IMG/VR virus record: IMGVR_UViG_3300033182_000984 | Span: 1-48,901 of that record | Direction: 5' to 3' (one strand) | Source of the DNA: a virus | DNA: 48,901 nt | Notes under the pieces: generated by a model | Databases searched by the model: none | The model's input: the letters and a program-made list of their open reading frames with translations, nothing else | Told to the model about the DNA's origin: nothing | In this document: positions 7,268-35,622 of the stretch, one piece after another | Position numbering within the stretch: position 1 is the stretch's first letter | Layout: each line of letters opens with the position of its first letter | Program-made: the position numbers and the translations under genes

Positions 7268-8002
7268 TTAGATTTCGCCCAGAGCGTCAAGTTCCCGATA
7301 AACGCTTCCCCACGCCAAATCGGCCGGACCCGCAACGTTGACGTAATCACGCAGCTCCTCGGCCGGTTCATCATCCGGCAACGGATTCTTAATCGGCACC
7401 AGTTCCGTGTACTCAATTGGCGCCAACTTGACGACATCCAACTGTGGGTTCGTGTTTTCCACAAGATCAATCGTGCATCGAGCCGACGTGATTCTTTGCG
7501 CAGCGTTTCGCCGTTGCGAGTCAAACGACAAATCAAAAATTGTCCAGAACGTCAACGACCCACCACCGTACGAACCGGGGGCGCCAAGAAAGTTGTCGGC
7601 ATTCGTGAAAAACACTGGCCGAGCCGACTGGGCAATCTCAGACAACGTTTTCAATGCGTCTTCCACGTCAATGAACATGCCGTCGTTCGGTAACGCCACC
7701 AAAAACTGAAACCTCACCCGCTTCGCTTTCGGACCAGCCCACAACACGAGCGGCTTACGACCCGGCCGAGGAATCTCCACCATTTCAGGTCCGACAGCGC
7801 TGTAGGACACCTGCTCTGGAGGGAACGGAAACTGGAACACCAAATTGTCCGAGTTCGGCGCCAGTTTGACGGCTTCCATGATCGGATACACCGGCGACGA
7901 CGACGTGGTTGACTGCCGTGAATCACCGGCCGCTCCGATGGAACGACGCCACCTGCTGGGTGACACCCTGATTGTTCTGAGTCCGGAAATGCTGTCAGCC
8001 AT
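7268..8002 (-). CDS. Tail tube initiator / baseplate hub adaptor, XkdP/CIS-tube-like
   Basis: 244 aa. The core (about residues 54-175) reads as the beta-sandwich of LysM-less XkdP/gp53-gp54-like adaptors: 'LVFQFPFPPEQVSYSAVG' then 'GRKPLVLWAGPKAKRVRFQF', the typical 'P.w.W.G...k.v.f' signature of contractile-injection tube adaptors, and 'GGSLTFWTIFDLSFDSQRR'. No LysM motif was found at the C-terminus. The gene lies between tape measure and hub genes, the usual position. The stop of the tape measure overlaps its start as TAATG. It probably joins the tail tube to the baseplate hub. Confidence 0.6.
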   Translation of the reverse strand: MADSISGLRTIRVSPSRWRRSIGAAGDSRQSTTSSSPVYPIMEAVKLAPNSDNLVFQFPFPPEQVSYSAVGPEMVEIPRPGRKPLVLWAGPKAKRVRFQFLVALPNDGMFIDVEDALKTLSEIAQSARPVFFTNADNFLGAPGSYGGGSLTFWTIFDLSFDSQRRNAAQRITSARCTIDLVENTNPQLDVVKLAPIEYTELVPIKNPLPDDEPAEELRDYVNVAGPADLAWGSVYRELDALGEI

Positions 8003-11000
8003 TACGAACGCTCCCTAGCGTCACGATTCGCCTGCCTGATGCGCTCCATCACCATCGTGGCGACCTGCTGTTCGTTCATGCCTTCGGAGGCGTACACGTT
8101 GATCGTGTAACTGTCGTTGCTGGACGAACCTCCAGCCATGGCCATTCCGCCCCCGACAAGGCTTGGGGTTGCGGTGTCGCCGACCGGTCCGCCCTGCGGG
8201 GGGACGACATGCAGGTGGCGGCTTCCGCCTGCGCCATGGAAATCGGCGTATCCACCGGAGGCAAGAATGAGAGACTTGTAGCCACCCAAGTTTTGGCCGA
8301 TCAGATCGTAGGCTCGACCGGCGGCGTGATCTGACATGCCGGAGCCGAGACCGCTCGTGCGGAATGCTGATGTGACGGTACGCCGTCCTGACAGCATCAT
8401 GTCAAACTTGCGGTGCGATGACATAGTGTCAACAAGGTTTCGACGTGGCGAGAATGTGTCGCCACTGTCACCCTTCACGGCGTCAACTAGCGCATTAATA
8501 TTCTCGTTGAACGTGATCATTGCGTCTTCAAGCGGTTGGAAGGCTTCTCCGACGCCTTGAACAATTTCATCAGGCAATGCGTCTAAGAAACGATCATTTT
8601 CGCTTTGCTGAACAGTTATTTGAGTGCCGAACGTCGTCTCAAACGCCTGCTCCATGCCCAACGCTTCAAGGAAACCCTGCGCACCCTGCATTCCAAAAAG
8701 GTTCAGAGCCGCCGCACTAAAACCTTCCGGAGAAATATTTCCGGCATTCCATTGCCCTTGAAGTGCCCGCAACCCGGCTTGAGCCAAACCGGTCGTTTCA
8801 GCAAGCGCACGTCGAACAAACTCAGGATCTTGATCCCTCATCAGCGAGGCGGCTGCCGCCTGAGAGAAAGAACCAAGATTCGGCCCAAACTGAGGCATCC
8901 GACCAGCAGCGAGCTCTGCCGCAAGGTAAGCAAACTGCTCGGAGTCATAACCTTGCTCTGCGCCCATCCTGCCGATCGCTTCCATCATCTGGGAACGGTT
9001 GACGTTGTAACCCTGCTCCGCCATGATGGAGACGGCGTTGTCAGTCAACTGGGTAACCAAACCAGCCGTGGACTCCGCCATGAAGTCATCCCAGAAGCCG
9101 TACTTGAAGAAGTCGCTTTGGGTGCCTTCTAGCGAGCCACCCGCTTGGAACTGAAGTCCCGGTGCGCCAGAGCTACCGATGTTGCGAGTCAACGACAAAT
9201 AGGTGCGAAGCGCATCACCGCCAGTGGCAATGCTGGTCTGGGTGATGATGTCCTGCATGAAGCGAGCCGTGTCCTCCGCCGTCTGCTCGCCCGTCTTTAC
9301 CAACTCCACATAGTTCTGCTGAGCCTCGGTGATCGCCTGTGGCGCCAAGACTTTTTGTAGCGCTGTCTCCATGTTGGCGGTCGCATCAGCAAACACGCCG
9401 TTCATCGCAGCGTCAAAATCGGTGCCGAACTTGCCGACAGCGATACCCATCTCAGTAATCAACTCGGTCACCGTCATCAGGTTTGAACTGAGATCAATGT
9501 CCAATGACTGGGCCAACGCAATGAGTTCGTCATCGGTGCGACCACTAATCCGAGCGAGATCTGCCAGATTTCGATCAAACTGATCAATCGCTGGGTTCAG
9601 TTCTTCCATAATTTTGGCCTTCTCTTCAAGGCCGGCTTGGTATATCTCTTCCTGATTGTTCGTGGTGTTAGCAAACTTGATTAGTTCTGCTTCATATTCG
9701 TCACGCAATCGTTTGGCTTCGTCAATGCCGCCCGCCTGCAACGCACTCTTAATGCCGTCACCATAAATTTCAGCGAACTTACGTCCGTTATCTTTCGAAG
9801 CGTTCTTCACCTTGTTGCTGTTGACGAAACCCACCACTCCGCCAATAACGAGACCGGCAGCGGCACCAATAGCGGTACCGACACCGGGCAGGATTGAGCC
9901 GACCATCGCACCGGTCACCGCCCCAGCGAGCGCACCGCCAGCAGCCGTCCCAGCTGTGCTCCAGCCGTTCTCTGCCATTTTTCTGGTGAGTATGTCTGTG
10001 CCAACAAGTCCGGCGCCGGCGATAGCACCCGCAGCGCCGAGCCGCATCATTCCGGGGGCGGCAGCCCCAACGCTCGCCGCGCGTTGCGCTAAAGCACCTC
10101 TCAGGAACGGCGAAGCAACAATGCCCATGCCGGCGCCCTGAACAATATTGCCGGTTGTCCCTCCGATCATTCCACCCAAACCAGCAACACCGGCTCCCGC
10201 GGCCATGGCGCCAACACCCGCCATGACCGGTACGCGCCCGATTGCACCTCGAGCGCCTTTACCTGCTCTACCGGGAAGCAGGCCACCCGCCAGCATCAAA
10301 CCAATAATTGACGAGACGCTTCCAGGGATCGCTCGGAGCACGCTCAAAAGTTCGGTGAAACCGTGAACGAGGCTGGTGATGCCACCCAAGATTGCGTTGA
10401 TCGCTGGCAACGCATCAAAGAACACTTTACGGATTTCGCCGAACAAGTTGAAGATCTCCGCAATGAGATCACCAAGGCGGCGTCCAAATTCTTGGAACGC
10501 TTCATTATTTTCATCAATTAGTTCGGCAAGGCTTCGGAAGTTATCTCCAACACCAGAACCGATCGCACGAAGGATTGTGCCGAGGAACTCGTTGACCCGA
10601 GAGGATGTCTCGGAAAACTTTTTCAAACCTTGAGAGAAAATCTGGAAATACTTGCCGAACCAGTTCGTCATCCGACCCCATTTGTCAACGAAACGGTCAA
10701 GGAATTCGTCGGTGCGTGGAAGCCACTCGTTGATCAGTGTCGCAAGGAACCCTGTCAGTTTTTCAAACGCTCCGACCATGAAGTCAATGAAGTTGCCGCG
10801 CGCAAAGTTTGACAGGCTTCCGCTGATTTCAATAACGAATCGTCGGATCGTATTTCGAATTTGGTGAAACGCTTCTTGAACTGGACCAATGAATGTCTGT
10901 CCGATGTCAGCAAAAATCGTCTGCATTTCTGTGGCGAACGCCTTCAACTGGCCCATCAACGTGCCACGAACATTGCCTGATGTGCCCGACACACCTGCGG

Positions 11001-11955
11001 CTTCTGCCAGTTCACCGCTGGCAAACATCTTCAACAACTCTTCGTTAGTTTTTCCGCCAGTCTTCAAGACCTCTTTGAACGCCTTCTCAAACTGTGGTCC
11101 GAGTTCACCGGCTGCTGTAAGCACCTCTTCACCGCCAGCAGCTTTACCGGCTTGAAGCAACGACACTAGGTTCGCGGCGGCCGCCAAACCCTTCTCCATG
11201 TCACCGGAAGCCACAGCGAAGTCGGCGAGTCCTCGCAACGATTGAACTGTCGTGCCGGTAACCCGAGCGTTCTTGGAAGCAGCCGAGAACGCTCCGGTCA
11301 AACTCTGCAAACCGAACGTGGCCAGCGTCGCATCGGTCTGCATCATGCGAAGCGCACGGCTAGATGAACGGAAATCGCCACCGTAGTTTGCCGACGCTTG
11401 AGCAGCGGCGAACTGGCGTTGCGCCTGCGTGAAGAGTGCGACTGCCGTGAAAATACCTGCCGCAGCATTGGCCGCCGCAATACCGAGAGCGTTGACGGTT
11501 GCCGTCCATGCTCGTGACAGCGCCTGCCCAGTGCGCAACAGCAAGTTCACCGATGACAGCGCAGCGATCAAACCGATCGTTTCTAGGGCGGCACCCTTGA
11601 TGGCCAACGAGAACACTTTGCTAAAAATGTTGCCTGTGCGACGAGCATTCCTGCCCAATCGGTTCATCCGATCGTCACTGTCCTTGAGGCGCTTATTTAG
11701 CCTCTTGGTTCTGTCGTCGGAGTCCTTAGTTTTCTTGCCGTGATCGTCAAGATCATCGTTGAAGTCACGCAGTTTTCGGCCACTTTTATCCAGCCGATCA
11801 TCAAAGTCTTTGTGGGCATCGGCGAGGTCACGGAAACGCTTTTCGCATGCATCTGCTTGGGCACACAGGGCTGCGAGGCGACGTTGAACCTTATCAATTT
11901 CTTTAGTGTCAGCATTTACACGGATGCGTATTGTGACATTTTCATTGTCTGCCAT
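8002..11955 (-). CDS. Tape measure protein with C-terminal M15-type peptidase motif
   Basis: 1317 aa. The N-terminus (residues 1-110) is a heptad-rich, highly charged coiled coil; hydrophobic Gly/Ala-rich spans lie around 540-720, with helical regions on both sides, as in tape measures. Near the C-terminus a segment matches zinc D,D-carboxypeptidase/L-Ala-D-Glu peptidase family M15: SDHAAGRAYDL with ligands H1210 and D1217, then RHLHVV with H1247/H1249. Such built-in peptidoglycan hydrolases help the tail penetrate the cell wall. By the common rule of about 1.5 angstroms per residue the tail would be up to roughly 190 nm, less if the peptidase does not span the tube. It follows the frameshifted chaperone gene. 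Confidence 0.92.
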   Translation of the reverse strand: MADNENVTIRIRVNADTKEIDKVQRRLAALCAQADACEKRFRDLADAHKDFDDRLDKSGRKLRDFNDDLDDHGKKTKDSDDRTKRLNKRLKDSDDRMNRLGRNARRTGNIFSKVFSLAIKGAALETIGLIAALSSVNLLLRTGQALSRAWTATVNALGIAAANAAAGIFTAVALFTQAQRQFAAAQASANYGGDFRSSSRALRMMQTDATLATFGLQSLTGAFSAASKNARVTGTTVQSLRGLADFAVASGDMEKGLAAAANLVSLLQAGKAAGGEEVLTAAGELGPQFEKAFKEVLKTGGKTNEELLKMFASGELAEAAGVSGTSGNVRGTLMGQLKAFATEMQTIFADIGQTFIGPVQEAFHQIRNTIRRFVIEISGSLSNFARGNFIDFMVGAFEKLTGFLATLINEWLPRTDEFLDRFVDKWGRMTNWFGKYFQIFSQGLKKFSETSSRVNEFLGTILRAIGSGVGDNFRSLAELIDENNEAFQEFGRRLGDLIAEIFNLFGEIRKVFFDALPAINAILGGITSLVHGFTELLSVLRAIPGSVSSIIGLMLAGGLLPGRAGKGARGAIGRVPVMAGVGAMAAGAGVAGLGGMIGGTTGNIVQGAGMGIVASPFLRGALAQRAASVGAAAPGMMRLGAAGAIAGAGLVGTDILTRKMAENGWSTAGTAAGGALAGAVTGAMVGSILPGVGTAIGAAAGLVIGGVVGFVNSNKVKNASKDNGRKFAEIYGDGIKSALQAGGIDEAKRLRDEYEAELIKFANTTNNQEEIYQAGLEEKAKIMEELNPAIDQFDRNLADLARISGRTDDELIALAQSLDIDLSSNLMTVTELITEMGIAVGKFGTDFDAAMNGVFADATANMETALQKVLAPQAITEAQQNYVELVKTGEQTAEDTARFMQDIITQTSIATGGDALRTYLSLTRNIGSSGAPGLQFQAGGSLEGTQSDFFKYGFWDDFMAESTAGLVTQLTDNAVSIMAEQGYNVNRSQMMEAIGRMGAEQGYDSEQFAYLAAELAAGRMPQFGPNLGSFSQAAAASLMRDQDPEFVRRALAETTGLAQAGLRALQGQWNAGNISPEGFSAAALNLFGMQGAQGFLEALGMEQAFETTFGTQITVQQSENDRFLDALPDEIVQGVGEAFQPLEDAMITFNENINALVDAVKGDSGDTFSPRRNLVDTMSSHRKFDMMLSGRRTVTSAFRTSGLGSGMSDHAAGRAYDLIGQNLGGYKSLILASGGYADFHGAGGSRHLHVVPPQGGPVGDTATPSLVGGGMAMAGGSSSNDSYTINVYASEGMNEQQVATMVMERIRQANRDARERS

Positions 11956-13237: not shown

Positions 13238-14698
13238 TCAGACTACCGATGCGGTGAGGTTGGACTTGGTGACATCAACTTGGATCTGATCGCTAGTGGA
13301 CGACACGCGGATGCCGACCTTCGCCTTGACCAGACCGCCCGCCAACTGGGTGAGCGGGTTGATGGCGTCGTTGACCTGCACTGAGTAGCCGTAGTCAATA
13401 CGGCGTCCAGTGGTGTCAAACGCTTCGTAAAGGCCGCCAGCGATGCGGATTGGCTCCAGCATGTTGACGAGGCGGGCCTCCACCTTGGAGAACAGCGACG
13501 AACGGCCGTCAATCGGAGCGAAGATGAGATCCTCAAGCACCGTCTTGGCACGATCCACCACGTAGTTCAACATCTCCCGAGCAGTGGTGAACCTGTAGTT
13601 GTCCTCATCGCTAGACAGCGAGCGAGCACCGTAGACGCGCACTCGACCGTTGATGACGCGAAGGGCGTTCACCTTATTGTCGTCAAGGTCGTCGCCGGTT
13701 TCCGAGTTCACCGAAGCCGACAGGCCGGTAATGAACTTGGACTCCGAGATCGCTCCGGCGTAAGCCGCCCACGAACCGACGGTGTTGTGAGCAACCGCAC
13801 GCTTAGCCGCCACATAACCCTCAGGCGAAATCGTGAGGGTGGTGCCGGCGTCGTTCACCATCTTGACGTACGGGAAGAAGTACGCGGCGTACTCAGCATT
13901 GTCAGCCGAGGTGACATCCGCAGCATACGACTTAGCGGTGGTAGCGGAGTCCGACGACTCACCGGCAAGAAGGGCGAACCTGTTGTTAGCCGCAGCATGC
14001 GCCACAAGAGCCGCATGGATCTGACCGACGTCAGAGAAACTGCCGTCGTTCGGAATCGCAACAGAACCCGGTCCGAGATCGTCAGTGAACTCGGAGGTCA
14101 GAGCCGACGTGTAGTCGGTATCTACAATGTTGCCCTCGTCGGCGTCACCAGCGCTGAACGCAGCCTTAGTGAACACAGCCAGAGTGTCGGCACCGGCTGT
14201 CGCCGAAGCGTAGTTCTGCGCAATCGTGGAGGCGTTGATCTTCTGAACGGCGGTGGCAACGTTCGCAACCTCGCCGGTTGAGTACACAATTGAGTCATCA
14301 AGGTAGAACCTGACGTTGAATCCCGATCCAAGAGCGACAACTTCGGCATCCAGATTGGACGACCATGAACCCTGCCCAATAGCGGTGAGAGTCATGGCGG
14401 TTCCGGCAGTGCCACCGGTGACATCAAGCGTGCCGAACGTGGCGCTCGGTCCAACCACTCGGGAGACGTACACCTGAGCGCCGCCCTCCTCAAAGAAAGT
14501 CTGAACCTGCTGATGGATCGCACCGCTGGCGATGTAATCGCCATAGATGGTCTCGTAATCGGCAAGACTGCCAACCAGCTTGGCGGTGCCCTCAGGGCCA
14601 CGCTCCGTACGGCCCACGACAAAAAGGGTGGCCGTCGGGTTCTGGTTGACGGTAGACGGTCCTGAGCGAACCGAAGTGTTTACGACGATACCGGGCAT
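13238..14698 (-). CDS. Tail sheath protein
   Basis: 486 aa. It begins MPGIVVNTSVRSGPST, followed by 'ATLFVVGRTERGPEGTAKLV', 'SLADYETIYGDY' and 'VQTFFEEGGAQVYVSRVVG', the characteristic N-terminal domain of phage sheath proteins. The C-terminus (about 375-480) has the conserved 'TAREMLNYVVDRAKTVLEDLIFAPID' helix and closing strands that link neighbouring subunits by strand exchange. The start has a strong GGAGGGA ribosome site, and a -10-like TATACT lies about 50 bases upstream. It forms the contractile outer tail. Confidence 0.93.
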   Translation of the reverse strand: MPGIVVNTSVRSGPSTVNQNPTATLFVVGRTERGPEGTAKLVGSLADYETIYGDYIASGAIHQQVQTFFEEGGAQVYVSRVVGPSATFGTLDVTGGTAGTAMTLTAIGQGSWSSNLDAEVVALGSGFNVRFYLDDSIVYSTGEVANVATAVQKINASTIAQNYASATAGADTLAVFTKAAFSAGDADEGNIVDTDYTSALTSEFTDDLGPGSVAIPNDGSFSDVGQIHAALVAHAAANNRFALLAGESSDSATTAKSYAADVTSADNAEYAAYFFPYVKMVNDAGTTLTISPEGYVAAKRAVAHNTVGSWAAYAGAISESKFITGLSASVNSETGDDLDDNKVNALRVINGRVRVYGARSLSSDEDNYRFTTAREMLNYVVDRAKTVLEDLIFAPIDGRSSLFSKVEARLVNMLEPIRIAGGLYEAFDTTGRRIDYGYSVQVNDAINPLTQLAGGLVKAKVGIRVSSTSDQIQVDVTKSNLTASVV

Positions 14699-17871: not shown

Positions 17872-18444
17872 TCAGCGATCTTCATTCGGGGGGCGTTCAA
17901 TAAATTCGGTTGTCTCCGATGCTGAAGGTGCCTCTACCGGAACCCATGCACGTGAATACTTGTGCTGATCAATCTTCCGATGCTTCAGCAACGTCCCATC
18001 CAACATCACATCAATCTCATCCGAAGTCATCGCCATCTTTTTCCGCAACTCGTCCTGACTCAACTTCCCAGCCATGATCAAATCCCTCATAACTTTAGAA
18101 ACCTGTCGGGCGGCGCTATGACCCTTAGAGCGGTTGAGGCGAATGTGCATGAACGCAGCGTCCAAATCGGAGACGTCCTGAAAAATGACTGGCACATGAC
18201 TCTTCACCGTCTTTTTCACGGCTCGAGAACTTCCAGCAATTTCCCATCGGACGTTCCCATCAATGATGTTCATCGTGGACGTCTGAACAATGATCGGTTG
18301 CAACCAGCCGTACTCGGCCATTGATCGTGCCAGCACTTCTAGGTCCGGCTTCAACAGATAGCTTGATCGCCACGGACCCGGTTGCAACGTTTCACCCTTC
18401 ACCCATTCAATGTCGGTCATCATGTTTTTGTTCAGGCTAAACAT
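17872..18444 (-). CDS. ParB/sulfiredoxin-fold nuclease-like protein, IbrB-like
   Basis: 190 aa. The N-terminal ~110 residues have a ParB/Srx fold pattern: 'LEVLARSMAEYGWLQPIIV' then 'NIIDGNVRWEIAGSSRAVKK' (the position of the GEHR-type box) and 'HVPVIFQDVSDLDAAFMHIR'. The C-terminal part is a short helical extension. It overlaps the stop of the PAPS-reductase-like gene as TGATG. A ParB-like protein coupled to a PAPS-reductase/DUF3440-like protein is the arrangement of IbrB and IbrA in mobile elements of enterobacteria. Whether it cuts, hydrolyses NTPs or only binds DNA cannot be told from sequence. Confidence 0.75.
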   Translation of the reverse strand: MFSLNKNMMTDIEWVKGETLQPGPWRSSYLLKPDLEVLARSMAEYGWLQPIIVQTSTMNIIDGNVRWEIAGSSRAVKKTVKSHVPVIFQDVSDLDAAFMHIRLNRSKGHSAARQVSKVMRDLIMAGKLSQDELRKKMAMTSDEIDVMLDGTLLKHRKIDQHKYSRAWVPVEAPSASETTEFIERPPNEDR

Positions 18445-19607
18445 CAGCGTGAATCGTCAATGCTGTCGTAGGCGTCAAGGTTTGCCATTTGCTCTTCTTC
18501 TTTCTGTTGGACCGTAAACGCACGGGTTTTGGGACCCATCGGGTTCACTGACTGAATGTTGAACTCTTTCATCAGGATGTTTCTGATCAGCCAGTGCGTC
18601 GGATATGACGACGGATCCTTTGCCTGCTTCTTCCGGAACTCCGAAGCGAACGCCATCGCTCGACGGTGCAACCCTGGCGTCAGAACGTTGTCGTCAATAC
18701 ATCGCTTGACGCCTTTCCATCCCATCTCAGAATAGTTAGCGATCAGTTTCTCCATGTCAAAATCTGCCCACAGCCTTCGCTGGGCATCAATGTGAGGGAA
18801 GCATTCGTAAAGCCGATCGTAGAACTCTGGTTCGGTTGCTACGACGTCACCGATCCGACGGATAGCAACACAGTGCAAAGGGATCCCGACCCGAGTGTTT
18901 GACCCGCTGATTGCGGCAAGGTCGTAGTACTCGCAGTACGAAGCGTTGTGTTCCTCGCTGATGAACTTCAACACGTCGTCCGTAGTCCAGTCGTAAATCA
19001 CTTTTGCGAACCGCAACGGAATTGACTTCTTCATTCGGAACGGAACGTTGATGTAGTTCTCGTGCAACTTTTGGACGCACGACCGATACCGCACCATTGA
19101 CTCGTTGGCTCGGACACCGGTAAGGAACGCCACCCTTCCGGCTTTGCCCTGCATCGTGTAATAGTCAATTGACTCAGGGATCGCCGTGTTTGTGTCAAGC
19201 CCGAAGTGCTCGGCGGTGATGGCGCCCGGAGGAATGTCCCTGTACAGACGTCCTTCTAACTCGCGTTTCTTGCTCCACAACAGCACGTACTCTCTGCGAC
19301 CGAGCACCCAAATTTCTTGTCCTTGGGGCAGGCAGTACCACTCCATATCCACCCAGTCGTAGTCACGTACCTCTTCTATGTATTTGATGACGGCTGGGGA
19401 CACCATCTCTTCGTCACGGAAAATGACCTTTACTGGGCCAAGGCCACGTTCTTCGTGGATTTCCTTGGCCAAGTAAAGAACCGCTGTTGAATCTTTGCCT
19501 CCAGAGAACTGGACGCACACAGTGTCAAACGTGTCGTAGACATGTCGGATGCGTTCACGGGCGGCGTCTACGCATGAGATGTCTAGGAACATTCGTTGAC
19601 GGGTCAT
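18444..19607 (-). CDS. PAPS reductase-family / IbrA-like ATP-pyrophosphatase
   Basis: 387 aa from an ATG that overlaps the deacylase stop as ATGA; the frame continues upstream but the junction and length favour this start. The PP-loop SGGKDS (residues 35-40) binds ATP; 'IFRDEEMVSP' and 'FLTGVRANESMVRYRSC' (161-177) are the usual downstream motifs of the PAPS reductase/DndC/IbrA superfamily. The C-terminal half ('YDWTTDDVLKFISEEHNASY') fits DUF3440-type proteins rather than true sulfate assimilation enzymes. Such enzymes adenylate a substrate for sulfur or amine transfer. Together with the ParB-like partner it suggests nucleic-acid modification or regulation. Confidence 0.82.
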   Translation of the reverse strand: MTRQRMFLDISCVDAARERIRHVYDTFDTVCVQFSGGKDSTAVLYLAKEIHEERGLGPVKVIFRDEEMVSPAVIKYIEEVRDYDWVDMEWYCLPQGQEIWVLGRREYVLLWSKKRELEGRLYRDIPPGAITAEHFGLDTNTAIPESIDYYTMQGKAGRVAFLTGVRANESMVRYRSCVQKLHENYINVPFRMKKSIPLRFAKVIYDWTTDDVLKFISEEHNASYCEYYDLAAISGSNTRVGIPLHCVAIRRIGDVVATEPEFYDRLYECFPHIDAQRRLWADFDMEKLIANYSEMGWKGVKRCIDDNVLTPGLHRRAMAFASEFRKKQAKDPSSYPTHWLIRNILMKEFNIQSVNPMGPKTRAFTVQQKEEEQMANLDAYDSIDDSR

Positions 19608-20530
19608 GCGAAAAGCAACCCTCGTCGCATCACGCTTTGCTGAACCGCACACGATCTCATCTCGGTAATCGTAGTCATGTGCGCATCCGTGATGTCTTCC
19701 ATCGTGAAGTCGCCCCATGTGTATCCGCCTGCCATCGTGACGACGACAGGAACGTCTTGCTCAGCGAGCCAGCCTGACATCAACTTCTCACGCGTGTGGA
19801 GTTGCATCTCAAGCAACCCGTCGTTCAGCGGATCCACGCCAGCGTTGTAGATGATGATGTCGGGGTTGATGTCCGCCATGTCCACGGTGTTCAGCATTTT
19901 GATCAGTGACGTGATGTACTCGTCGGTATTAGCAATGACCAGTTGGTCAAACTGATCTTCGGGGACGTACGAGTCAAATCTGTTGGTGGACATGTCCCAC
20001 TGGTAGGTGGTGTCGTGGTTGATCATTGAGTAGGTGCCTCCACCGCAGTGGGCGTCCAGATCAATGACGAGCGATGTTAGACCTTTGCTTTCGGCGTACC
20101 GTGCGGCGAGTGCCACCCCGTTGAACGTGCAGAAGCCGACACCGTTTTCTCTACGGGCATGGTGAAGTCCGGATGACAAGGTGACGGCTACGTTCTTGTG
20201 CTGGCATGCCTCGTCAACAGCGGCGAGACATCCGGCGACGTGAGCTCGTGCCATCGGATAGATGTATTCGTCCCACGGGAAGCCTTGAGATCCAGCAAGA
20301 CGCGTGTCAGATCCGGTGCGGACTGCTTCCACATAGTCGTGATCGTGGAAGCGTCGAATATACTCGTCTGCGACGGCGTAGTGAGTGTTCGGATTGGCAA
20401 GTTCCAAGCGTTGGCGGTCAGCCACAAAGTTAGGGTCTGACGCAACTCGCTCAGCGATGTGCGCAGACTTACGGGTAGTGTCAAATGCGTACCCGCTCGC
20501 AGTGTAATCAGGGTTCCAAAATATCTTCAT
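19604..20530 (-). CDS. Histone deacetylase-family (HDAC/AcuC/acetylpolyamine) hydrolase
   Basis: 308 aa, near the usual length of bacterial HDAC-like enzymes. Catalytic motifs are intact: SSGLHHARRENGVGFCTFNG (H123, H124), VIDLDAHCGGGT (zinc ligands D159 and H161), NAGVDPLNDG (third ligand D233) and MAGGYTW (Y270, transition-state tyrosine). It should remove acyl groups from an amine, such as acetyl-lysine, acetylpolyamine or a modified nucleic acid; the substrate is unknown. It is the first gene behind a consensus promoter (AGGAG before its ATG) and is coupled to the IbrA-like gene by ATGA. An HDAC-like gene is unusual on a phage. Confidence 0.9.
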   Translation of the reverse strand: MKIFWNPDYTASGYAFDTTRKSAHIAERVASDPNFVADRQRLELANPNTHYAVADEYIRRFHDHDYVEAVRTGSDTRLAGSQGFPWDEYIYPMARAHVAGCLAAVDEACQHKNVAVTLSSGLHHARRENGVGFCTFNGVALAARYAESKGLTSLVIDLDAHCGGGTYSMINHDTTYQWDMSTNRFDSYVPEDQFDQLVIANTDEYITSLIKMLNTVDMADINPDIIIYNAGVDPLNDGLLEMQLHTREKLMSGWLAEQDVPVVVTMAGGYTWGDFTMEDITDAHMTTITEMRSCAVQQSVMRRGLLFA

Positions 20531-20557
20531 AAATCTCCTCTCGGTAGTACTTGATTG

Positions 20558-20584
20558 ATGTATACATTATAGGGCGATACGCCC
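20558..20584 (-). promoter_or_regulatory. Operator-like palindromes in the cassette promoter
   Basis: Two inverted repeats lie in the promoter: ATGTATACAT, a perfect 10-bp palindrome overlapping the -10 end and start region (20558-20567), and GGGCG-N3-CGCCC (20572-20584) in the spacer between -10 and -35. Either could bind a repressor and block RNA polymerase. Confidence 0.5.
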
Positions 20585-20594
20585 GTAATGTCAA
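20566..20594 (-). promoter_or_regulatory. Consensus sigma70-type promoter of the deacylase cassette
   Basis: On the minus strand TTGACA (20594-20589), exactly 17 bases, then TATAAT (20571-20566): a full match to the housekeeping-sigma consensus. It lies 36 bases before the deacylase ATG and just after the ParB-like gene's stop. No other promoter in the window is this good, suggesting early or constitutive host-polymerase transcription of the cassette, unless repressed. Confidence 0.88.
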
Positions 20595-20596
20595 CT

Positions 20597-21361
20597 TCAG
20601 AAGTCGGCGTGAGACTCAACAAACTCAAGCAAACGCTGAGCCGTCGTCGTCCCTTTGTACGCTACATCGTGACGTAGCCAACGCACAAATTCGTACCATC
20701 GCCTCTGCTGATCCGCATCGTCAAACACCAGCGTGTATTGGACGACCGCCTGCTTTGATCCGGACTGTCCAATGCTGGTACTGCCTGTGGCAGCAACGCT
20801 TTTAGCGTCAACTTCACCAGTCGGCACGATCCGCTCTTCGCCATCCTCGTCAATTTCTCGAGTGACGGGCGGAGGTGCTGGTTCAACAAGTTGTGGTGCG
20901 ACATATCCTGGGGTGTCGTCAATTGTTCCGAGACGCCACGCCTGCTCGTCAAGCGCCGCCAACTCAAACACATCCCATCCGAGACCGTCCAGCAGATTCT
21001 CGTAGTCATCTGTAACTGTTGTCAAAATTTCGTTGAGCAACTCGGGGTCGGAATGACCGACTTCGGACGTACGGTTGTCTGCGAGCGCAAACGCCACCGC
21101 CTGCTTTTCGTCAACCTCATACTGAACTGCGGCGATCTTGTCCCAACCCAAACGTTTCGCAGCCTCAAGCTGGTGGTTGCCGGCGATCACAGTTGACGTG
21201 CCGTCGCCATTGGGTCGAACAACAATCGGTTTGACTTGACCGAACTCTTTGTACGAAGCCATGATCGCTTCAACGTTGCCTTTGCGCGGGTTGCCAGGCA
21301 ACGGCACAAGTTTGTCAATGTCCACGCCGAACGGTTCTAGGGTCGGATCAATGCGGTTCAT
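20597..21361 (-). CDS. ParB-like nuclease domain protein
   Basis: 254 aa. The N-terminal ParB domain is clear: 'KLVPLPGNPRKGNVEAIM', 'SYKEFGQVKPIVVRPNG' and 'VIAGNHQLEAAKRLGW' (the GxHR-type box appears as GNHQ), then 'DEKQAVAFALADNRTSEVG', the usual end of this domain in phage proteins. The C-terminal half (about 150-254) contains a Pro/Glu linker and a basic helical domain. Phage proteins of this kind have been linked to DNA binding, nicking or as partners of modification enzymes. It is ATGA-coupled to the gene at 21358-21696. It is not closely similar to the IbrB-like protein. Confidence 0.82.
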   Translation of the reverse strand: MNRIDPTLEPFGVDIDKLVPLPGNPRKGNVEAIMASYKEFGQVKPIVVRPNGDGTSTVIAGNHQLEAAKRLGWDKIAAVQYEVDEKQAVAFALADNRTSEVGHSDPELLNEILTTVTDDYENLLDGLGWDVFELAALDEQAWRLGTIDDTPGYVAPQLVEPAPPPVTREIDEDGEERIVPTGEVDAKSVAATGSTSIGQSGSKQAVVQYTLVFDDADQQRRWYEFVRWLRHDVAYKGTTTAQRLLEFVESHADF

Positions 21362-21696
21362 GTTTGCGCCCTCACGTTCGCTGCGAGTGTTCGCAGGGCG
21401 TCAATGGAAGTTCGCAACGAGGACAATCTTTCTCGTTTTGACTTCACCAACGCCTCTGCGATTTTGTGGCTGTGGATCTGAATCTCCAGTTTGTAGTCAG
21501 CCCACGCTTCTCGTTCTCGGATAGAGCCTTTCGCAGAAAGATATTCTTTTGCCCACGACGCCTTGTAGTCGGCTTCTTTTTCTGCTGCGTCTACAGCGAG
21601 CGACTCAAACGTTTCTGTCTCATCTTCCAGCATTGACGTAAGCCGGATGATTTCCTGCTCAATCTCTACTTGTGAGATTGGACGGGTTCTATTCAC
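21358..21696 (-). CDS. Small helical protein of unknown function
   Basis: 112 aa when started at the GTG at 21696, which has GGAG seven bases upstream and overlaps the resolvase stop by eight bases; a longer frame to 21915 overlaps the resolvase by 227 bases and is unlikely. The protein is almost entirely helical and charged ('QVEIEQEIIRLTSMLEDETE', 'AWADYKLEIQIHSHKIAEAL'). Proteins of this kind occur near recombination genes in actinophages, but I know no function. Gene context suggests DNA metabolism. Confidence 0.65.
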   Translation of the reverse strand: MNRTRPISQVEIEQEIIRLTSMLEDETETFESLAVDAAEKEADYKASWAKEYLSAKGSIREREAWADYKLEIQIHSHKIAEALVKSKRERLSSLRTSIDALRTLAANVRAQT

Positions 21697-22213
21697 AGTA
21701 TTTCTCCAGTTCTGACCAGTCGAAAATGTTGAGGGCGAGCCGGTTTGTTTCCGGCCAGTCGTGTCGTTCCCGACCGAGTGCGGCACGCCCCATCTCCTCA
21801 AGGATGTAGGCGTCGCACCGGTCGTTACCTCCGGCACCGTCCCAAACAATCCCTGTTCTTGCCGATATTGCTGAAACAACCTCGTTTTTTCCGGCATTTC
21901 CTTTTCCTGTAGCAAATTTCGCTCTCAACGTTGGAGGCACCTCAACATAAGGGATCTCCATTGTGTACAGCAGAAGTCTTATAACTCCGCCGAGTTCACC
22001 AATGCTGTGCGCACGACTTTGTCGGCTGGCGAACGAGTATCCCTCAATGACCACACCCGGATGACCGTGAGCAGCAAGTTCTGCTCGCACCGCCGCCTGT
22101 ATCTCGTACAGTCGTTCGGCACCCTTGGACTTCACCGCAATCGTGGACGTTCTGCCATCACACGACACACCTGTAGAGGTGAGCGACAGGTCCAAGCCCA
22201 TGATGCTTCTCAT
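21689..22213 (-). CDS. RuvC-like Holliday junction resolvase
   Basis: 174 aa. The RNase H-like fold of RuvC is visible with all four acidic residues: MGLDLSLTSTGV (D8), VVIEGYSF (E57) and GGNDRCDAYILEE (D131, D134). The length matches RuvC (about 170 aa). It should cut four-way junctions during recombination or resolve branched DNA before packaging. It works with the annealing protein and the Cas4-like nuclease encoded in the same operon. It is coupled on both sides by short overlaps. Confidence 0.88.
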   Translation of the reverse strand: MRSIMGLDLSLTSTGVSCDGRTSTIAVKSKGAERLYEIQAAVRAELAAHGHPGVVIEGYSFASRQSRAHSIGELGGVIRLLLYTMEIPYVEVPPTLRAKFATGKGNAGKNEVVSAISARTGIVWDGAGGNDRCDAYILEEMGRAALGRERHDWPETNRLALNIFDWSELEKYCE

Positions 22214-25442: not shown

Positions 25443-26747
25443 TTAGATGATGATAGCGGCCCGCTTGCGCTGCGGCAAGCCCAACCCCGTCAACATCGTG
25501 AACGCTCCTACAGCGGAGTCCACTTGATCGTCGTGGTTTGCGGCCTCAGGGAACGAGGCGAATTCGTCAAGCCACTCGGTAAGCCACGGCGCTCGCACGA
25601 CCCGAATGTTGCCGTTTGCGACAGCGGCAGCGAACGGACGAGCACGCGTAATTTTGTCGCCGGTCGCTCTGACTCCTTGGAAGTCGTATCCGGGAACGAC
25701 GTAGCGGGCGTACTGATCAATCAGCGCTTTTCCTGACGAGCCGGGTTCCTGCTCCATGCGGATGGAAACGTGGTGACCGTCCTCGTAGGCGGTTTGAGCG
25801 ATGAGTTGTTCAACCTGATCGCTCTTTACGCGAGCTTTTTTGACGTCCAACACGTACCCGATTCCTTGATCAAAAAGCATCAGTGTGCCGACCGTCCAGT
25901 CGGGATCTGGGTTTGACTGACTCGGTTCCGTTGCGGCGCAGTCCCAGAATCGGATGGCTCGAGCCATGCTCGTGACTTCAGGAATTTCGTGTTGGTCAAG
26001 AAGCACGAACGACTCTCGTTCAAACATTGAGCCGAGCGTGGTGGACCACCAGTCGCCTTCCTCTAGTCGGCGTCGCTCAACCGGATCAAGCGCTTGAAGT
26101 GACTGACGGTAGGAGTCGGCGTCAATGCCGGGGTTATCAGTCAATCTAGAAGGAACAAAAATTCTGCCGTAGTTGCGTCCCTCCACGATGAATCGCTGAC
26201 GCACCCAGTTCGGCGCAGGGTTTGACGCAGCCCGCATCCGAAGCGGAACTTTTGCGAGTGGACCTGATGCCGGACGACGAAGTCGGGAGAACAGATATCG
26301 GTAATCCGATTCTCGAATTTCCGTGACCTCATCCATTCCGATGAACTGGAACTCGGCGCCCTTGTAGCGGAGGTAGTCCTGACTATTATTGAGGTATCCG
26401 AATGAGATTCGAGCACCTGACGGGAACTGGGCGGTGTAGTTGTTGGAGTTCCATCGAACGTTGTCGTAGGGGGCCATCCATGTGACAAAGCGATCCATGA
26501 TGGCGCCGGGGAGAGCGAGGTCGGCGTAGGTGCGACGGAAAAGGATGGCGCTGTAGTTGGGTATGTCAACGAACTGTAGAGCGGCCATGAGTAGCGCCGA
26601 ACTTTTGCCACCGCCAGCCGCTCCACCAAAAAGTGCTTCTAGGGCGTTTGTTCGAAGAAAAACTTTTTGGGTTATAGATGCTTCTTCAGGGCAAAATTCC
26701 GGAGCTTTCGGTTCTAGGTACTCAAGTACCTTCTGCCAATCCGACAT
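25443..26747 (-). CDS. terL: Terminase large subunit
   Basis: 434 aa. The packaging ATPase has Walker A at 41-50 (GGAAGGGKSS), 'ILFRRTYADL' (68-77), and Walker B with catalytic Glu at 135-140 (FIGMDE). The RNase H-like nuclease domain has WDCAATE (268-274), MEQEPGSSGK (331-340) and HDDQVDSAVGAF (405-416), the usual three acidic sites. It is the first gene of the leftward operon and is transcribed away from the portal gene, which is unusual. No small terminase was recognised in the window. Confidence 0.94.
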   Translation of the reverse strand: MSDWQKVLEYLEPKAPEFCPEEASITQKVFLRTNALEALFGGAAGGGKSSALLMAALQFVDIPNYSAILFRRTYADLALPGAIMDRFVTWMAPYDNVRWNSNNYTAQFPSGARISFGYLNNSQDYLRYKGAEFQFIGMDEVTEIRESDYRYLFSRLRRPASGPLAKVPLRMRAASNPAPNWVRQRFIVEGRNYGRIFVPSRLTDNPGIDADSYRQSLQALDPVERRRLEEGDWWSTTLGSMFERESFVLLDQHEIPEVTSMARAIRFWDCAATEPSQSNPDPDWTVGTLMLFDQGIGYVLDVKKARVKSDQVEQLIAQTAYEDGHHVSIRMEQEPGSSGKALIDQYARYVVPGYDFQGVRATGDKITRARPFAAAVANGNIRVVRAPWLTEWLDEFASFPEAANHDDQVDSAVGAFTMLTGLGLPQRKRAAIII

Positions 26748-26985: not shown

Positions 26986-29202
26986 ATGGCATGGAACTCA
27001 AGGGAGACAAAGAGCGCCGCTGGGGCTGAGGAAAAAGTTGCCCGTATCGGGCCTGGCGCCCCTATTGCGCTCAGCCCGACGCTTGCTGGTCGTGCGTATC
27101 GTGATGCGTGGGATATTGAGCGTGCTTATCGAGAGGGCATGCAGAAGGTTGTTTGGGTCAACCGCTGTATTGATGTTATTTCCGGCAACCAAGCACGCCT
27201 GCCAGTAATTCTACGCAAAGATAATAGCCCTAATGGCGAAGAAATTTCTCGCAAACATCCGTTGCTTGACATTCTCAATAGTAAAACCAATATGGGCGAG
27301 AACTCGTTTATTTTCCGGTATCGCTTGTCAAGTCAATTGTTGATGTCCACTCGTGGCGTGTTCATTGAGAAAGTTTTCGGGCGTGGCGGACAGGTGATTG
27401 CGCTCAACCTTCTTCCTCCGCAAAACACGTCACCGATTCCTGACGCACGCAAATTTGTTGGTGGCTACGAGGTTGATCTTCCTTTCGGACAGAAGATGAC
27501 GCTCCCTCCGGAGCGGGTTATCTGGCTGCGCCGACCTCATCCGCTGGACCCGTACCTGTCGCTGACCCCGATGGAGTCGGCAGGAATCGCCATTGAAATT
27601 GAAAACTTGGCCCGCCTCTACAACCGCAACTTTTTGCTAAATGACGGTCGTCCGGGTGGCCTGCTCGTCATCCGAGGCGAAATTGATGAAGAGGACAAGG
27701 ACGAACTGCGTAGCCGGTTCCGTGGCAACTTGAACCGTGCTGGATCTGTCGGTGTCATCTCTTCAGATGACGGCGCTGACTTCGTGGACACGGGCGCCAG
27801 CCCGCGTGACGCCGCATACGTGCAGATGCGTCAGTTGACCAAGGAAGAGATCCTTGCTGCGTTCGGTGTCCCTGAGTCCGTAATCGGTAATGCCGCTGGT
27901 CGCACGTTTTCCAACGCCGCTGAAGAACTCCGAGTGTTCTGGACAGAGACCATGTTGCCTCATTTGGAGCCGATCGCTCGAGCGCTGGACGATCTGGAGG
28001 ACGAACTGTACGTGGACTTTGACACGAGTTCTGTCCCAATTCTCATTATCGCCAAGCAGGAACGTCACCGGTATGTGATGGAAGAGTTCCAGCAGGGTCT
28101 GATTAGCGCCAACGAGTACCGTGACAGGACTGGGCGGAACGAGGTTGACTCTGAGATCGCTGACCAGTTGCTGTCCAATCCGAGTCTTGTTCCGATCGCA
28201 AACACCAAGAAACCGTTTGCCGTTGAAGAGCAGGTTCCTGTCGCTGAGGCTGGCGGAGAAGTTCCTGTTGCCGGTGGCGATCAGATGGCGCCGGGGATGG
28301 AAGGCCAGATGCCGCCCGCTGGAGGTGCGCCCGCCGAGGGTGCCCCACCGGCCGCTCCGGGCGGAGCCGCCCCTACCGCAGCAGTGGAGCCGGTGCCGGA
28401 AGGCCAGTTGTCGGCTTCCGCTGATGGCATCCAAGTGAAGTCGGCGCAGGATCTGGAAGACGAGTGGCATGAGAAAGCGGAGAAGGTTTCTGAGCGATGG
28501 TCAGAAATTTTTGATCGCTCTCTTGAACGGTTCTTTGATCGTCAGCAGCGTGTGATCATTGAAAAAGCGCTCGGCGCAAAGTCACGCAAGGCGTTGTCAA
28601 ACGGAACGTTTGACCCTGACTTCGTGTTTGACTCCGAGGCGTGGAACCGTCAGTTGGCTGACGACATCCGACCGCTGCTGAAAGCGATGATGGTAGAGGC
28701 TGCTGAGGAAGTGGCGACGAAGTCCGGTCTGGATGCCACACTTGAAGAGGATGAGGTTGACGAATATCTAGATGCTCAGGTTGCTCGTGCGCAGAAAGTG
28801 AATGAGAGCACGAAGGGTGAAGTGGTTGCGGCGTTGACTGTTGCTGCTGCGATGTCGGGTGAGGACGAGGATCGTTCATCAGTGCTGAAGACGGCTCTGG
28901 TTGCTGTGTTCGCCAATTTGTTGGGGCGTCGTCGCCGAGTGATGGCCGACCATGAGACGCAGACTGCGCTAAACGCTGGCACGTTTTTTGCGAGTCAAAA
29001 AGTTGGCGCTACCCATAAGCAGTGGAAAACTCGACGAGATGAGAAGGTTCGTGATGTGCATCGGTCGCTTGAGGGTAAGCGTGTTGGATTGACGGAGAAC
29101 TTTGTCGGTAAGAGTGTCGGCATTCTGAGGTTCCCCGGTGATCCGTTGGCTCCGCCGGCGTTGACGATGAATTGCCGTTGCCGACTTCGTTTTACTGATT
29201 AA
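26986..29202 (+). CDS. Portal protein fused to a MuF-like head morphogenesis domain
   Basis: 738 aa. Residues 1-400 fit HK97-type portals: 'WVNRCIDVISGNQARLPVI', 'RYRLSSQLLMSTRGVFIEKV', 'WLRRPHPLDPYLSLTPMESA', NRNFLLNDGRPGGLLV and 'AAFGVPESVIGNAAGRTFSN'. A Pro/Ala/Gly-rich linker (about 420-480) follows. The C-terminal 250 residues end with the MuF/SPP1 gp7 signature: 'THKQWKTRRDEKVRDVHRSL' then 'LRFPGDPLAPPALTMNCRCR'. The portal forms the DNA entry ring; MuF proteins are minor capsid proteins often ejected. The fusion makes them equimolar at one vertex. Confidence 0.9.
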   Translation: MAWNSRETKSAAGAEEKVARIGPGAPIALSPTLAGRAYRDAWDIERAYREGMQKVVWVNRCIDVISGNQARLPVILRKDNSPNGEEISRKHPLLDILNSKTNMGENSFIFRYRLSSQLLMSTRGVFIEKVFGRGGQVIALNLLPPQNTSPIPDARKFVGGYEVDLPFGQKMTLPPERVIWLRRPHPLDPYLSLTPMESAGIAIEIENLARLYNRNFLLNDGRPGGLLVIRGEIDEEDKDELRSRFRGNLNRAGSVGVISSDDGADFVDTGASPRDAAYVQMRQLTKEEILAAFGVPESVIGNAAGRTFSNAAEELRVFWTETMLPHLEPIARALDDLEDELYVDFDTSSVPILIIAKQERHRYVMEEFQQGLISANEYRDRTGRNEVDSEIADQLLSNPSLVPIANTKKPFAVEEQVPVAEAGGEVPVAGGDQMAPGMEGQMPPAGGAPAEGAPPAAPGGAAPTAAVEPVPEGQLSASADGIQVKSAQDLEDEWHEKAEKVSERWSEIFDRSLERFFDRQQRVIIEKALGAKSRKALSNGTFDPDFVFDSEAWNRQLADDIRPLLKAMMVEAAEEVATKSGLDATLEEDEVDEYLDAQVARAQKVNESTKGEVVAALTVAAAMSGEDEDRSSVLKTALVAVFANLLGRRRRVMADHETQTALNAGTFFASQKVGATHKQWKTRRDEKVRDVHRSLEGKRVGLTENFVGKSVGILRFPGDPLAPPALTMNCRCRLRFTD

Positions 29203-33566: not shown

Positions 33567-35622
33567 AATTCGCCGCATCCGCACTGTCTTCTTGCGCCAC
33601 GTCAAAGCGTTGGAAGAGCCGGTTCCAACCAATCTGTTTTACGAGCCGTTGAATGGATCCGACGAGTTGTTGCGGTACAAGGGAATGTTGTATCGCTCTG
33701 GTGCTTTGAAGCGTGGCGAAGAAAAAGTTGTTGGTGTTGTCGGTTCGTCTAGTCGTGCCGGTCAGGCTGCGCAGGCGGCGGGTTCTATTGCGCTTCCGGG
33801 CAACATCAGCCCTGTCCGTAGCCCTGTGCGGTCCGGTATTGCTCGAGCGTTGACGCCAGGCGGTGGTCGTGGCCGAGGAAGCGTTGGGATTCCGGGTAAG
33901 CCTGAGCGTGGCTGGCGGTGCCCTGAAGGCTTTCAGTTCGGTGGACGTTTCACTGATGAAAACTTTTCTACGTGCGGTAAACAGTTGTTTGATATCCCGT
34001 CGCTACGGGAAACGATTGGGCAGGCGGTATACCGCACGCGTGGTTACCGTGGCACTGGCGGCGCACCTGAAGCTCGTGGTGGTGAAGCACGAAAGTTGAC
34101 TGCCGCTGAAGCCCCTGATGTTGACATCATGGTTAGACGTGCCGCCAACGTTCCGGTGGTCGGCGACGAGGACAAAAAGCAACGTTCGGCGTCAATCAAA
34201 AATGCTGTTGAGGCTGTCCAAAATCAAGATGGCACTTCGGCTTTGCTGGTTCGTCGTGACGGTTACGTCATGGTTCCGGTCGTGTCTTCTGAGGAGTTGC
34301 GTGGCGTTCCGGATAACCGCAACATGGAGCAGGCTGCGTGGGTTCAGTCGGTTCGTGATCCTGATCAGATCGGCCGTGACGAGTTGGGTTTCTTGTCCAA
34401 CACGGGTGTCACCACGCTTACTTACGTTACGCCTAATGGTGTACAATTGACGTTGGATCGCACACGCGATTTATCAACAGGTGAACGTCGGCAATTAGGT
34501 AAGGATGTAAACAAAGCCGCCGACATGAGCGTGGATGACGATCCGGCCGCAAGATTGAAGTTTCTCGCTGAGAAGTCCGACGGCGCTTTTGAATTCTCTC
34601 AGGATTTTGGCGACGTGAAAGACCCAGAGGGTGAAGTGACTTCGGGCGAGGGTGAGGGGAAGGCGAAATGGGTTGTTGGGGCATTCATTGATCCACCCGA
34701 GGAACGTGTTGAGGAAGTTGCGGAACCTGACGAGCAGTCTGATGCTGGTGCTGCTGACGCTCCTGTCGTTGAGCGTGTCACTGCTGCTGACGGCGAACGA
34801 ATTGACTCCGTTAAGGAGGCCGTGGAGCACATCAACAAGGGTGGGCTACTGGCGGATATTGATCCGTCGATTGTTATTGAGGCTCTGAAAAAGTCTGACA
34901 GGTACAAGGCTCGTAAGCTCAACGACGACATCACCTTGTATGAGTCTGAGGACGGACAGCGCATCCTGTTGAATGAAAACGCCGAGCGGTTTGAGCATTT
35001 GAGCGCTCATTTCTCGTCGGAGGTGTTGCGTGAGATGGGTGTTCAAGCGCCGGCGGTGCGTTTCGCTGGCGAGGGTGACACTCGTCCGTTCTTGTATCGG
35101 TCTCCGGATGGCGTCATTGAAGGCGCCGAGTTGTTGGACGACGTAGACCCAGAAGAGTTGCCCCCGGACGTAATCTTGGGCACACAGTTCGCTGACTATT
35201 TGACGGACACTAGAGATCGTTCTAACGCTTCGGTTCTGGGTGTTCAGGTTGGTGACACGACAGAGGCTGTTGTGACGGTCGGTCCGATGGCTGCGCTTAT
35301 CGGTTTGGACGAGGATGAACTTGAGGCTCGTCGAAACATCGGTCCAGAAGAGTTCTTTGAGCAAACCACTGAAGCGTACGGTCGTAACTTTGAAGGCGCC
35401 GATGAAGAAACTCGGTCATTGATGCTTCAGGTTGTTGAAGGTTTGCTTGAGCGTGCCCGAGAGTTCAACTTTGATGAGTACCGCCAGAAACTTGAGTCAG
35501 ACGGTATTCTTAGTGAAGCCGAACTACAACATCTTGAGATTGTTCAAGAAATTTTTGAAACTCGGCTTGAGGCTTTGAATTCCTCAAAAGACACCATTCT
35601 TCATATCTTGGGTCTGTCATGA
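33556..35622 (+). CDS. Large virion protein with degenerate kinase-like domain
   Basis: 688 aa if started at the GTG at 33556; ATG at 33523 or GTG at 33538 are alternatives. Residues 119-142 hold the motif GWRCPEGFQFGGRFTD...CG, shared with the 2484-aa protein. A globular domain lies at about 190-330. The C-terminal ~270 residues look like a diverged protein- or PI-kinase fold: 'DDITLYESEDGQRILLNENA' (N-lobe strands), 'SSEVLREMGVQAPAVRF' (helix), 'ADYLTDTRDRSNASVLG' (catalytic-loop-like, D554 and N557). The usual DFG/IDHG is replaced by VTVGPM, so it is probably inactive or altered. It is likely a minor capsid or ejected protein. Confidence 0.6.
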   Translation: MAAEIRRIRTVFLRHVKALEEPVPTNLFYEPLNGSDELLRYKGMLYRSGALKRGEEKVVGVVGSSSRAGQAAQAAGSIALPGNISPVRSPVRSGIARALTPGGGRGRGSVGIPGKPERGWRCPEGFQFGGRFTDENFSTCGKQLFDIPSLRETIGQAVYRTRGYRGTGGAPEARGGEARKLTAAEAPDVDIMVRRAANVPVVGDEDKKQRSASIKNAVEAVQNQDGTSALLVRRDGYVMVPVVSSEELRGVPDNRNMEQAAWVQSVRDPDQIGRDELGFLSNTGVTTLTYVTPNGVQLTLDRTRDLSTGERRQLGKDVNKAADMSVDDDPAARLKFLAEKSDGAFEFSQDFGDVKDPEGEVTSGEGEGKAKWVVGAFIDPPEERVEEVAEPDEQSDAGAADAPVVERVTAADGERIDSVKEAVEHINKGGLLADIDPSIVIEALKKSDRYKARKLNDDITLYESEDGQRILLNENAERFEHLSAHFSSEVLREMGVQAPAVRFAGEGDTRPFLYRSPDGVIEGAELLDDVDPEELPPDVILGTQFADYLTDTRDRSNASVLGVQVGDTTEAVVTVGPMAALIGLDEDELEARRNIGPEEFFEQTTEAYGRNFEGADEETRSLMLQVVEGLLERAREFNFDEYRQKLESDGILSEAELQHLEIVQEIFETRLEALNSSKDTILHILGLS

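Follow-up and report, generated by a model that had tools for sequence, protein, structure and literature searches.

A 2002 study reportedly found that IbrAB of E. coli activate the eib genes of prophages. IbrA/B in environmental phages were noted in 2015 (PMC4490671). Among bacterial deacylases, V. cholerae HdaH (PDB 9GKV/9GKY) belongs to sub-cluster 5b and is a lysine de-decanoylase (PMC11532494). The Leptospira HDAC11-type class IV enzyme (PDB 9GZ5) is a lysine deacylase, and clade B deacylases have an HPFD loop-1 motif and a Phe foot-pocket gatekeeper (PMC13325672). In this study, we analyzed positions 1-48,901 of IMG/VR virus record IMGVR_UViG_3300033182_000984, a 48.9-kb virus contig of a freshwater contractile-tailed phage. 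This whole stretch of 48,901 nucleotides (nt) is called the window. Three of its genes, for a deacylase, an IbrA-like protein and an IbrB-like protein, lie side by side downstream of a gene for a second ParB-fold protein, ParB2.

The conserved unit at this locus is ParB2-IbrA-IbrB, of which IbrA is near-core in the phage group, and the trio joins the conserved IbrA/IbrB pair and an optional deacylase in a local arrangement. We propose, with a probability of about two in three, that the deacylase is a moron-like host-takeover gene, co-transcribed with the pair but functionally separable from it. In the conserved module of actinophage-type tailed phages, IbrA would be a PP-loop ATP-pyrophosphatase-type enzyme that activates a substrate with ATP, and IbrB its ParB-fold partner. 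A class-IV-like Zn deacylase gene, together with a sigma-70 promoter of its own, would have been inserted between ParB2 and IbrA, most simply by a single acquisition in one sublineage. The promoter and the overlapping frames would place deacylase, IbrA and IbrB on one transcript in this phage. The predicted enzyme would most likely deacylate lysine residues in host proteins, or else a small acyl-amine, serving host takeover independently of the pair and perhaps benefiting the phage.

Occurrence of the deacylase at the ParB2-IbrA-IbrB locus

The first-pass annotation had joined the three genes into a three-part system. IbrA was used to retrieve 80 loci from IMG/VR, and those of the window lineage have ParB2-IbrA-IbrB-(GT)-adaptor as their common gene order, GT being the glycosyltransferase-like gene. 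A ParB-like/IbrA/IbrB order also precedes the terminase in mycobacteriophage Phlyer, Arthrobacter phage Kovu and Amycolatopsis phage-plasmid pAmyja1. Only the window, L002, L005-L007 and L089 have the deacylase gene placed between ParB2 and IbrA. The L001 and L004 contigs start within the deacylase gene, and L093 has ParB2 and the deacylase, followed by the contig end. A small Cys-rich gene separates the deacylase from IbrA in L002, L004, L005 and L007, and a similar gene occupies the same site in L003, L014 and L016, which lack the deacylase. Where the junction could be read, the deacylase sits directly on IbrA in the window and L001 (TAATG junction) only. In deacylase-lacking relatives the site is empty, with a ParB2-IbrA gap that is often -1 to 20 bp, or is filled by other small genes.

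Loci were also collected without regard to the cassette genes, with the terminase and the small gene at 21358-21915 as markers. In 41 such records of ~25 kb or more, IbrA was present in 36 and the deacylase in three, none of them beside IbrA; two of the three carried IbrA elsewhere and one lacked it. No association between deacylase and IbrA is visible among these 41 records. When the 59 loci with enough downstream sequence were sorted, 43 had ParB2-IbrA-IbrB without deacylase, 4 had deacylase and IbrA, and 12 had neither. With an alignment query, relatives of the deacylase were detected on at least 185 contigs of IMG/VR, and bacterial genomes yielded 406 (the single deacylase sequence as an IMG/VR pattern query gave no hits). 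Of the 185, 80 were examined, and among those beyond the window's sublineage none had IbrA in the fetched flanks. Records chosen by IbrA contained the deacylase in 6/50 cases. Many of the records compared are fragments, so that absences count for little. The deacylase was found beside or near the pair in one sublineage and in no other phage lineage examined.

The deacylases found next to IbrA grouped as one clade of 9 rows in a 143-sequence tree, with a Shimodaira-Hasegawa-like approximate likelihood ratio (SH-aLRT) of 96. This clade is nested in a larger group that also contains Acidimicrobiaceae sequences, which suggests that the host is perhaps an acidimicrobial actinobacterium.

The genes of the neighbourhood differ in evolutionary rate. 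Between the window and L001, its closest relative, the deacylase was 65.0% identical over 123 codons, with a proportion of nonsynonymous differences (pN) of 0.255 and a nonsynonymous to synonymous rate ratio (dN/dS) of ~0.16. The values were 96.4% for IbrA (pN 0.031, dN/dS 0.03), 87.8% for IbrB (pN 0.091, dN/dS 0.05) and 91.8% for the sheath (pN 0.050), with synonymous differences (pS) of 0.47-0.79 across the compared genes. Against L002, L005, L007 and L089, too, the deacylase had the lowest conservation among the genes compared, its margin below IbrB being small for L007. By these comparisons the deacylase is constrained and functional, yet the fastest-evolving gene of the neighbourhood. A rate so unlike that of IbrA argues against both proteins being subunits of one enzyme. 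Base composition gave no signal of recent transfer (G+C 0.549 in the deacylase vs 0.544 in the window).

The deacylase is preceded by TTGACA (20594-20589)-N17-TATAAT (20571-20566), the sole 12/12 match within 12-30 kb and the sole match of at least 11/12 across the entire window. The full consensus promoter of the first-pass annotation was thus confirmed, and its position is kept in five relatives: the ParB2 stop codon is directly followed by TTGnnn-N17-TAnnAT in the window, L086, L087, L089, L091 and L093, six deacylase-bearing phages. The promoter accompanies the deacylase, as a moron-like insertion would predict, though without a closing terminator. An inverted repeat in the spacer is perfect in the window, L087 (GCGGC-AAA-GCCGC) and L091 (CCTGG-AA-CCAGG), and weaker in L086, L089 and L093; this palindrome is a possible operator.

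A competing explanation is a three-protein system acting on a modified nucleotide of phage DNA or host tRNA: activation would fall to IbrA, positioning or transfer to IbrB, and removal of an acyl group to the deacylase. The tight overlaps and single promoter in the window would fit such a system, as would the direct junction shared by L001, but the pair stands without the deacylase at 43 of the 59 loci and IbrA and the deacylase occur in 36/41 and 3/41 of the records chosen without regard to them. Both genes do co-occur in 20/50 other deacylase records, and the Kovu acetyltransferase overlapping IbrB gives acyl chemistry near the pair a precedent; against this, the deacylases of other phages sit in different contexts, and the evolutionary rates are opposite. 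We consider this system very unlikely. The trio as a conserved unit was rejected, since the great majority of related phages have the pair without the deacylase and the deacylase occurs elsewhere without the adjacent pair. This outcome matches the refuting condition that the first-pass annotation had set for its three-part system. Even within the sublineage, wherever the junction was read, deacylase and IbrA are separated by a further gene in all phages but the window and L001. As a machine the trio would have been a novelty; the comparison reduces it to a local arrangement.

Our proposal of a separable, moron-like deacylase must also be set against several observations that weigh on the other side. 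The 20/50 deacylase-chosen records with IbrA elsewhere in the record lie outside the sublineage, and within it the deacylase phages with sufficient contig reach all keep IbrA/IbrB downstream. From this co-occurrence, a loose functional link between deacylase and IbrA/IbrB is possible. Of the features of a moron, an own promoter and an insertion between genes adjacent in relatives were found, whereas no terminator-like site was present on the minus strand at the deacylase 3' end, where the gene overlaps IbrA. Synonymous divergence (dS) in the rate comparison is near saturation. The fold is the sole basis for the substrate, and the nearest characterised enzymes are ~25% identical.

The phage deacylase family and its likely substrate

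As the first-pass annotation had read it, the deacylase is an HDAC-family hydrolase with all catalytic residues. It matched PF00850 Hist_deacetyl in Pfam at 3.7e-28 (99.2 bits vs a gathering score of 27.9), and H123, H124, D157, D159, H161, D233 and Y270 are invariant among 31 phage homologues. These include the Zn ligands D159/H161/D233, the His-His dyad H123/H124 and the catalytic Tyr Y270. A PHROG search gave no match. The top PDB sequence match was 9gkv, V. cholerae HdaH (9e-25, phmmer). An AlphaFold2 model, predicted with an alignment of the fetched loci only, had a predicted local distance difference test (pLDDT) score of 94. Foldseek returned 452 PDB matches at E<=0.001, the best of which were HDAC-family enzymes. 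The top matches were 9gky and 9gkv (HdaH, template modelling (TM) score 0.80-0.82) and 9gz5 (Leptospira HDAC11). The predicted fold is the classical Zn-dependent HDAC-superfamily fold, nearest to class-IV-like/cluster 5 bacterial deacylases. At the presumed counterparts of the HPFD motif and the Phe gatekeeper, as placed relative to human HDAC11, the window protein reads AFD (loop 1) and Leu (the residue preceding HH). Because the fold is nearest to HdaH, a lysine de-decanoylase, we favour acyl-lysine over polyamine as the substrate with modest confidence.

The deacylase could instead act on acetylpolyamines, as an amidohydrolase supplying phage replication with free spermidine. Acetylpolyamine amidohydrolases (cluster 4) are marked by an extended L2 loop for polyamine specificity and by dimer formation. 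Polyamine substrates are hinted at in one bacterial branch, where about eight related deacylases, all from Betaproteobacteria (L185, L194, L200, L207, L214, L239 and L248 among them), have PotA/B/D-type polyamine transporter genes next to them, but these transporter-linked genes fall outside the window clade, in a separate region of the 143-sequence tree. Among viruses, acetylpolyamine amidohydrolases are on record from giant viruses (PMC9992855), the only ones found in the literature on phage deacetylases. The model is closer to class-IV-like lysine deacylases (TM 0.82, HdaH) than to the Marinobacter acetylpolyamine amidohydrolase, msAPAH (TM 0.71, Foldseek). The genes that recur around the phage deacylase include no recognised polyamine gene; ribonucleotide reductase-like, ThyX-like and primase/helicase-like genes do recur there, all three labelled solely by reading the sequences. 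Release of spermidine is an unlikely role on this comparison.

A narrower form of our proposal takes defence as the target: the deacylase would erase a host stress or defence acyl mark, on a protein or a signal, together with a phosphatase in other phages. A phosphatase-like gene with an HCxxGxxRS motif lies directly upstream on the same strand at 28/85 phage deacylase loci and near the deacylase at 3/63 bacterial loci, and the motif is almost confined, in these loci, to positions near the deacylase. The fast evolution of the deacylase would fit this idea, as would ADP-ribosylglycohydrolase or macrodomain genes close by in a few Actinomycetota. However, the window gene has no adjoining phosphatase, the 28 phage cases are mutually related, and the phosphatase label comes from the motif only, as Pfam gave no match. 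We regard the defence target as doubtful. The upstream gene reads HCHAG[IM]SRS in L096, L099-L110, L115-L120, L127, L130-L132, L142, L145, L151, L159 and L160, and a similar gene stands beside the deacylase in L182, L184 and L237. In Antrihabitans (L186:6001-9363), a fused ADP-ribosylglycohydrolase/macrodomain (O-acetyl-ADP-ribose deacetylase) gene lies near a deacylase homologue.

A broader reading, to which we give a low probability, is that tailed phages have a little-described class-IV-like deacylase family that strips acyl marks of host proteins or defence signals during infection, with a phosphatase-like partner in one lineage. Many of the deacylase-bearing tailed phages are of aquatic origin, and their hosts are probably Actinomycetota. 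Control of host acetylation, raised by the first-pass annotation, is possible for the deacylase alone. The phage deacylase family itself is the most interesting remainder of the analysis; it is broad and poorly annotated, and it would open the control of protein acylation in bacteria by phages to direct test.

IbrA-like and IbrB-like proteins and the surrounding genes

The features of the locus are listed in Table 1. The IbrA-like frame is open up to 19718, and its start was set at 19607 because an MTRQRMFLD start is common to relatives. The deacylase and IbrA-like genes overlap by ATGA, and the IbrA-like and IbrB-like genes by TGATG, both read directly from the sequence as first annotated. 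The minus-strand order is RuvC-like, the gene at 21358-21915, ParB2, deacylase, IbrA-like, IbrB-like, glycosyltransferase-like and head-tail adaptor. The presence of tail sheath and tape measure genes identifies a contractile-tailed phage, and terminase and portal lie on the opposite side of the cassette from them. On the plus strand, a single open reading frame (ORF) of 2484 amino acids (aa) at 35619-43073 has the portal/head genes on one side and the major head protein on the other.

Table 1. Features of the deacylase locus and structural genes of the window
Feature	Position	Strand	Basis
Deacylase (HDAC fold), 308 aa	19604-20530	(-)	ORF and PF00850
IbrA-like PP-loop (PAPS-reductase-superfamily) protein, 387 aa	18444-19607	(-)	PF01507, phrog_2302
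IbrB-like ParB/Srx-fold protein, 190 aa	17872-18444	(-)	PF02195, phrog_2159; IIDGNVR and NRSKG motifs
ParB2, second ParB-fold protein, 254 aa	20597-21361	(-)	PF02195 2.5e-10; phrog_723 3.8e-42
Putative sigma-70-type promoter TTGACA-N17-TATAAT	20566-20594	(-)	Position kept in HDAC-bearing relatives
13-bp inverted repeat GGGCG-TAT-CGCCC in promoter spacer	20572-20584	(-)	Sequence reading
Shine-Dalgarno-like sequence CGAGAGGAGATTT ahead of deacylase ATG	20531-20543	(-)	Sequence reading
Tail sheath	13238-14698
Tape measure protein	8002-11955
Terminase	25443-26747
Portal	26986-29202

The IbrA-like protein matched PF01507 PAPS_reduct (3e-10) and phrog_2302 (1e-72), and it combines the PP-loop SGGKDS and the PAPS_reduct domain with an adjoining ParB-fold gene. 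It was 73-84% identical to 22 environmental phage relatives, 39% to the Kovu protein and 35% to the Phlyer protein. The SGGKDS (35-40), DEE, GxRAxES and YD motifs are kept across 25 homologues, in which C225, preceding the YYD motif, is the only invariant Cys. A sequence search of solved structures with IbrA found nothing. The fold model was weak (pLDDT 67), and the PP-loop fold is all that its Foldseek hits (PAPS reductase, FAD synthase, TtuA/NcsA and TilS) confirm. Judged from PP-loop enzymes generally, IbrA likely performs an ATP-dependent activation step. It was rejected as an assimilatory PAPS reductase because the C-terminal ECGLH catalytic Cys motif is absent. With neither this motif nor a DndC-level match, the motifs give no support to DNA or tRNA sulfuration, although such a role is conceivable.

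The IbrB-like protein matched PF02195 ParB_N (2.6e-7; 31 bits vs 26.3) and phrog_2159 (1.5e-32). It was rejected as a sulfiredoxin, as IIDGNVR replaces the GGCHR-type motif and no Cys is present at the site in 16 aligned homologues.

In G113 and G114 (L418:1085-3187), IbrA has an in-frame insert at the window C92 position with intein-splicing and LAGLIDADG matches, and an intact IbrB follows downstream. An intein-like insert is in keeping with a functional, conserved protein. Some IbrA homologues have one in-frame stop codon (the G108, G110, G111 and G119 hits, and L064). Another phage group (L020, L036, L049) has no IbrB match beside IbrA, and its upstream protein has a DGQHR-like LLNGQHRLSA stretch.

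Comparison with known systems

The first-pass annotation had described a pair of IbrA (DUF3440) and IbrB on mobile elements. The pair does travel together, as seen in the loci and in a published report (PMC4490671), but the window protein had no match to PF11922 DUF3440 at E<=0.1, whereas an E. coli DUF3440 control protein matched at 1.6e-35. The E. coli IbrA-type protein shares the PP-loop/PAPS-reductase domain (28% identity over 294 columns), and it differs from the window protein in that PF11922 match and in having Asn at the C225 position. The likeness to DndC/BrxP sulfur-transfer enzymes is in the PP-loop region only, within the first ~80 residues, and DndC was rejected as an identity (26 bits vs the TIGR03183 equivalog cut-off of 290).

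V. cholerae HdaH and Leptospira HDAC11 are the best sequence and structure matches to the deacylase. The catalytic residues are identical, but identity is ~25% and the window protein has Leu preceding the HH pair. Rhodococcus phage E3 gp202, a 'putative histone deacetylase', belongs to the same phage-type subfamily (39% identity over 94%). It differs in not adjoining IbrA/IbrB, and no IbrA was found in that genome (G016 = L112).

The closest counterparts of the conserved module are in Phlyer (gp4/gp5, annotated IBrA and IBrB) and Kovu (gp6/gp7), which have the same pair in the same order with a ParB-like gene upstream. Unlike the window, these loci have no deacylase, and the terminase genes come next, in Kovu after an annotated acetyltransferase gene (L082:5694-6116) that overlaps the IbrB end. 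Since ParB2-IbrA-IbrB is present in these laboratory phages, its function could be tested there.

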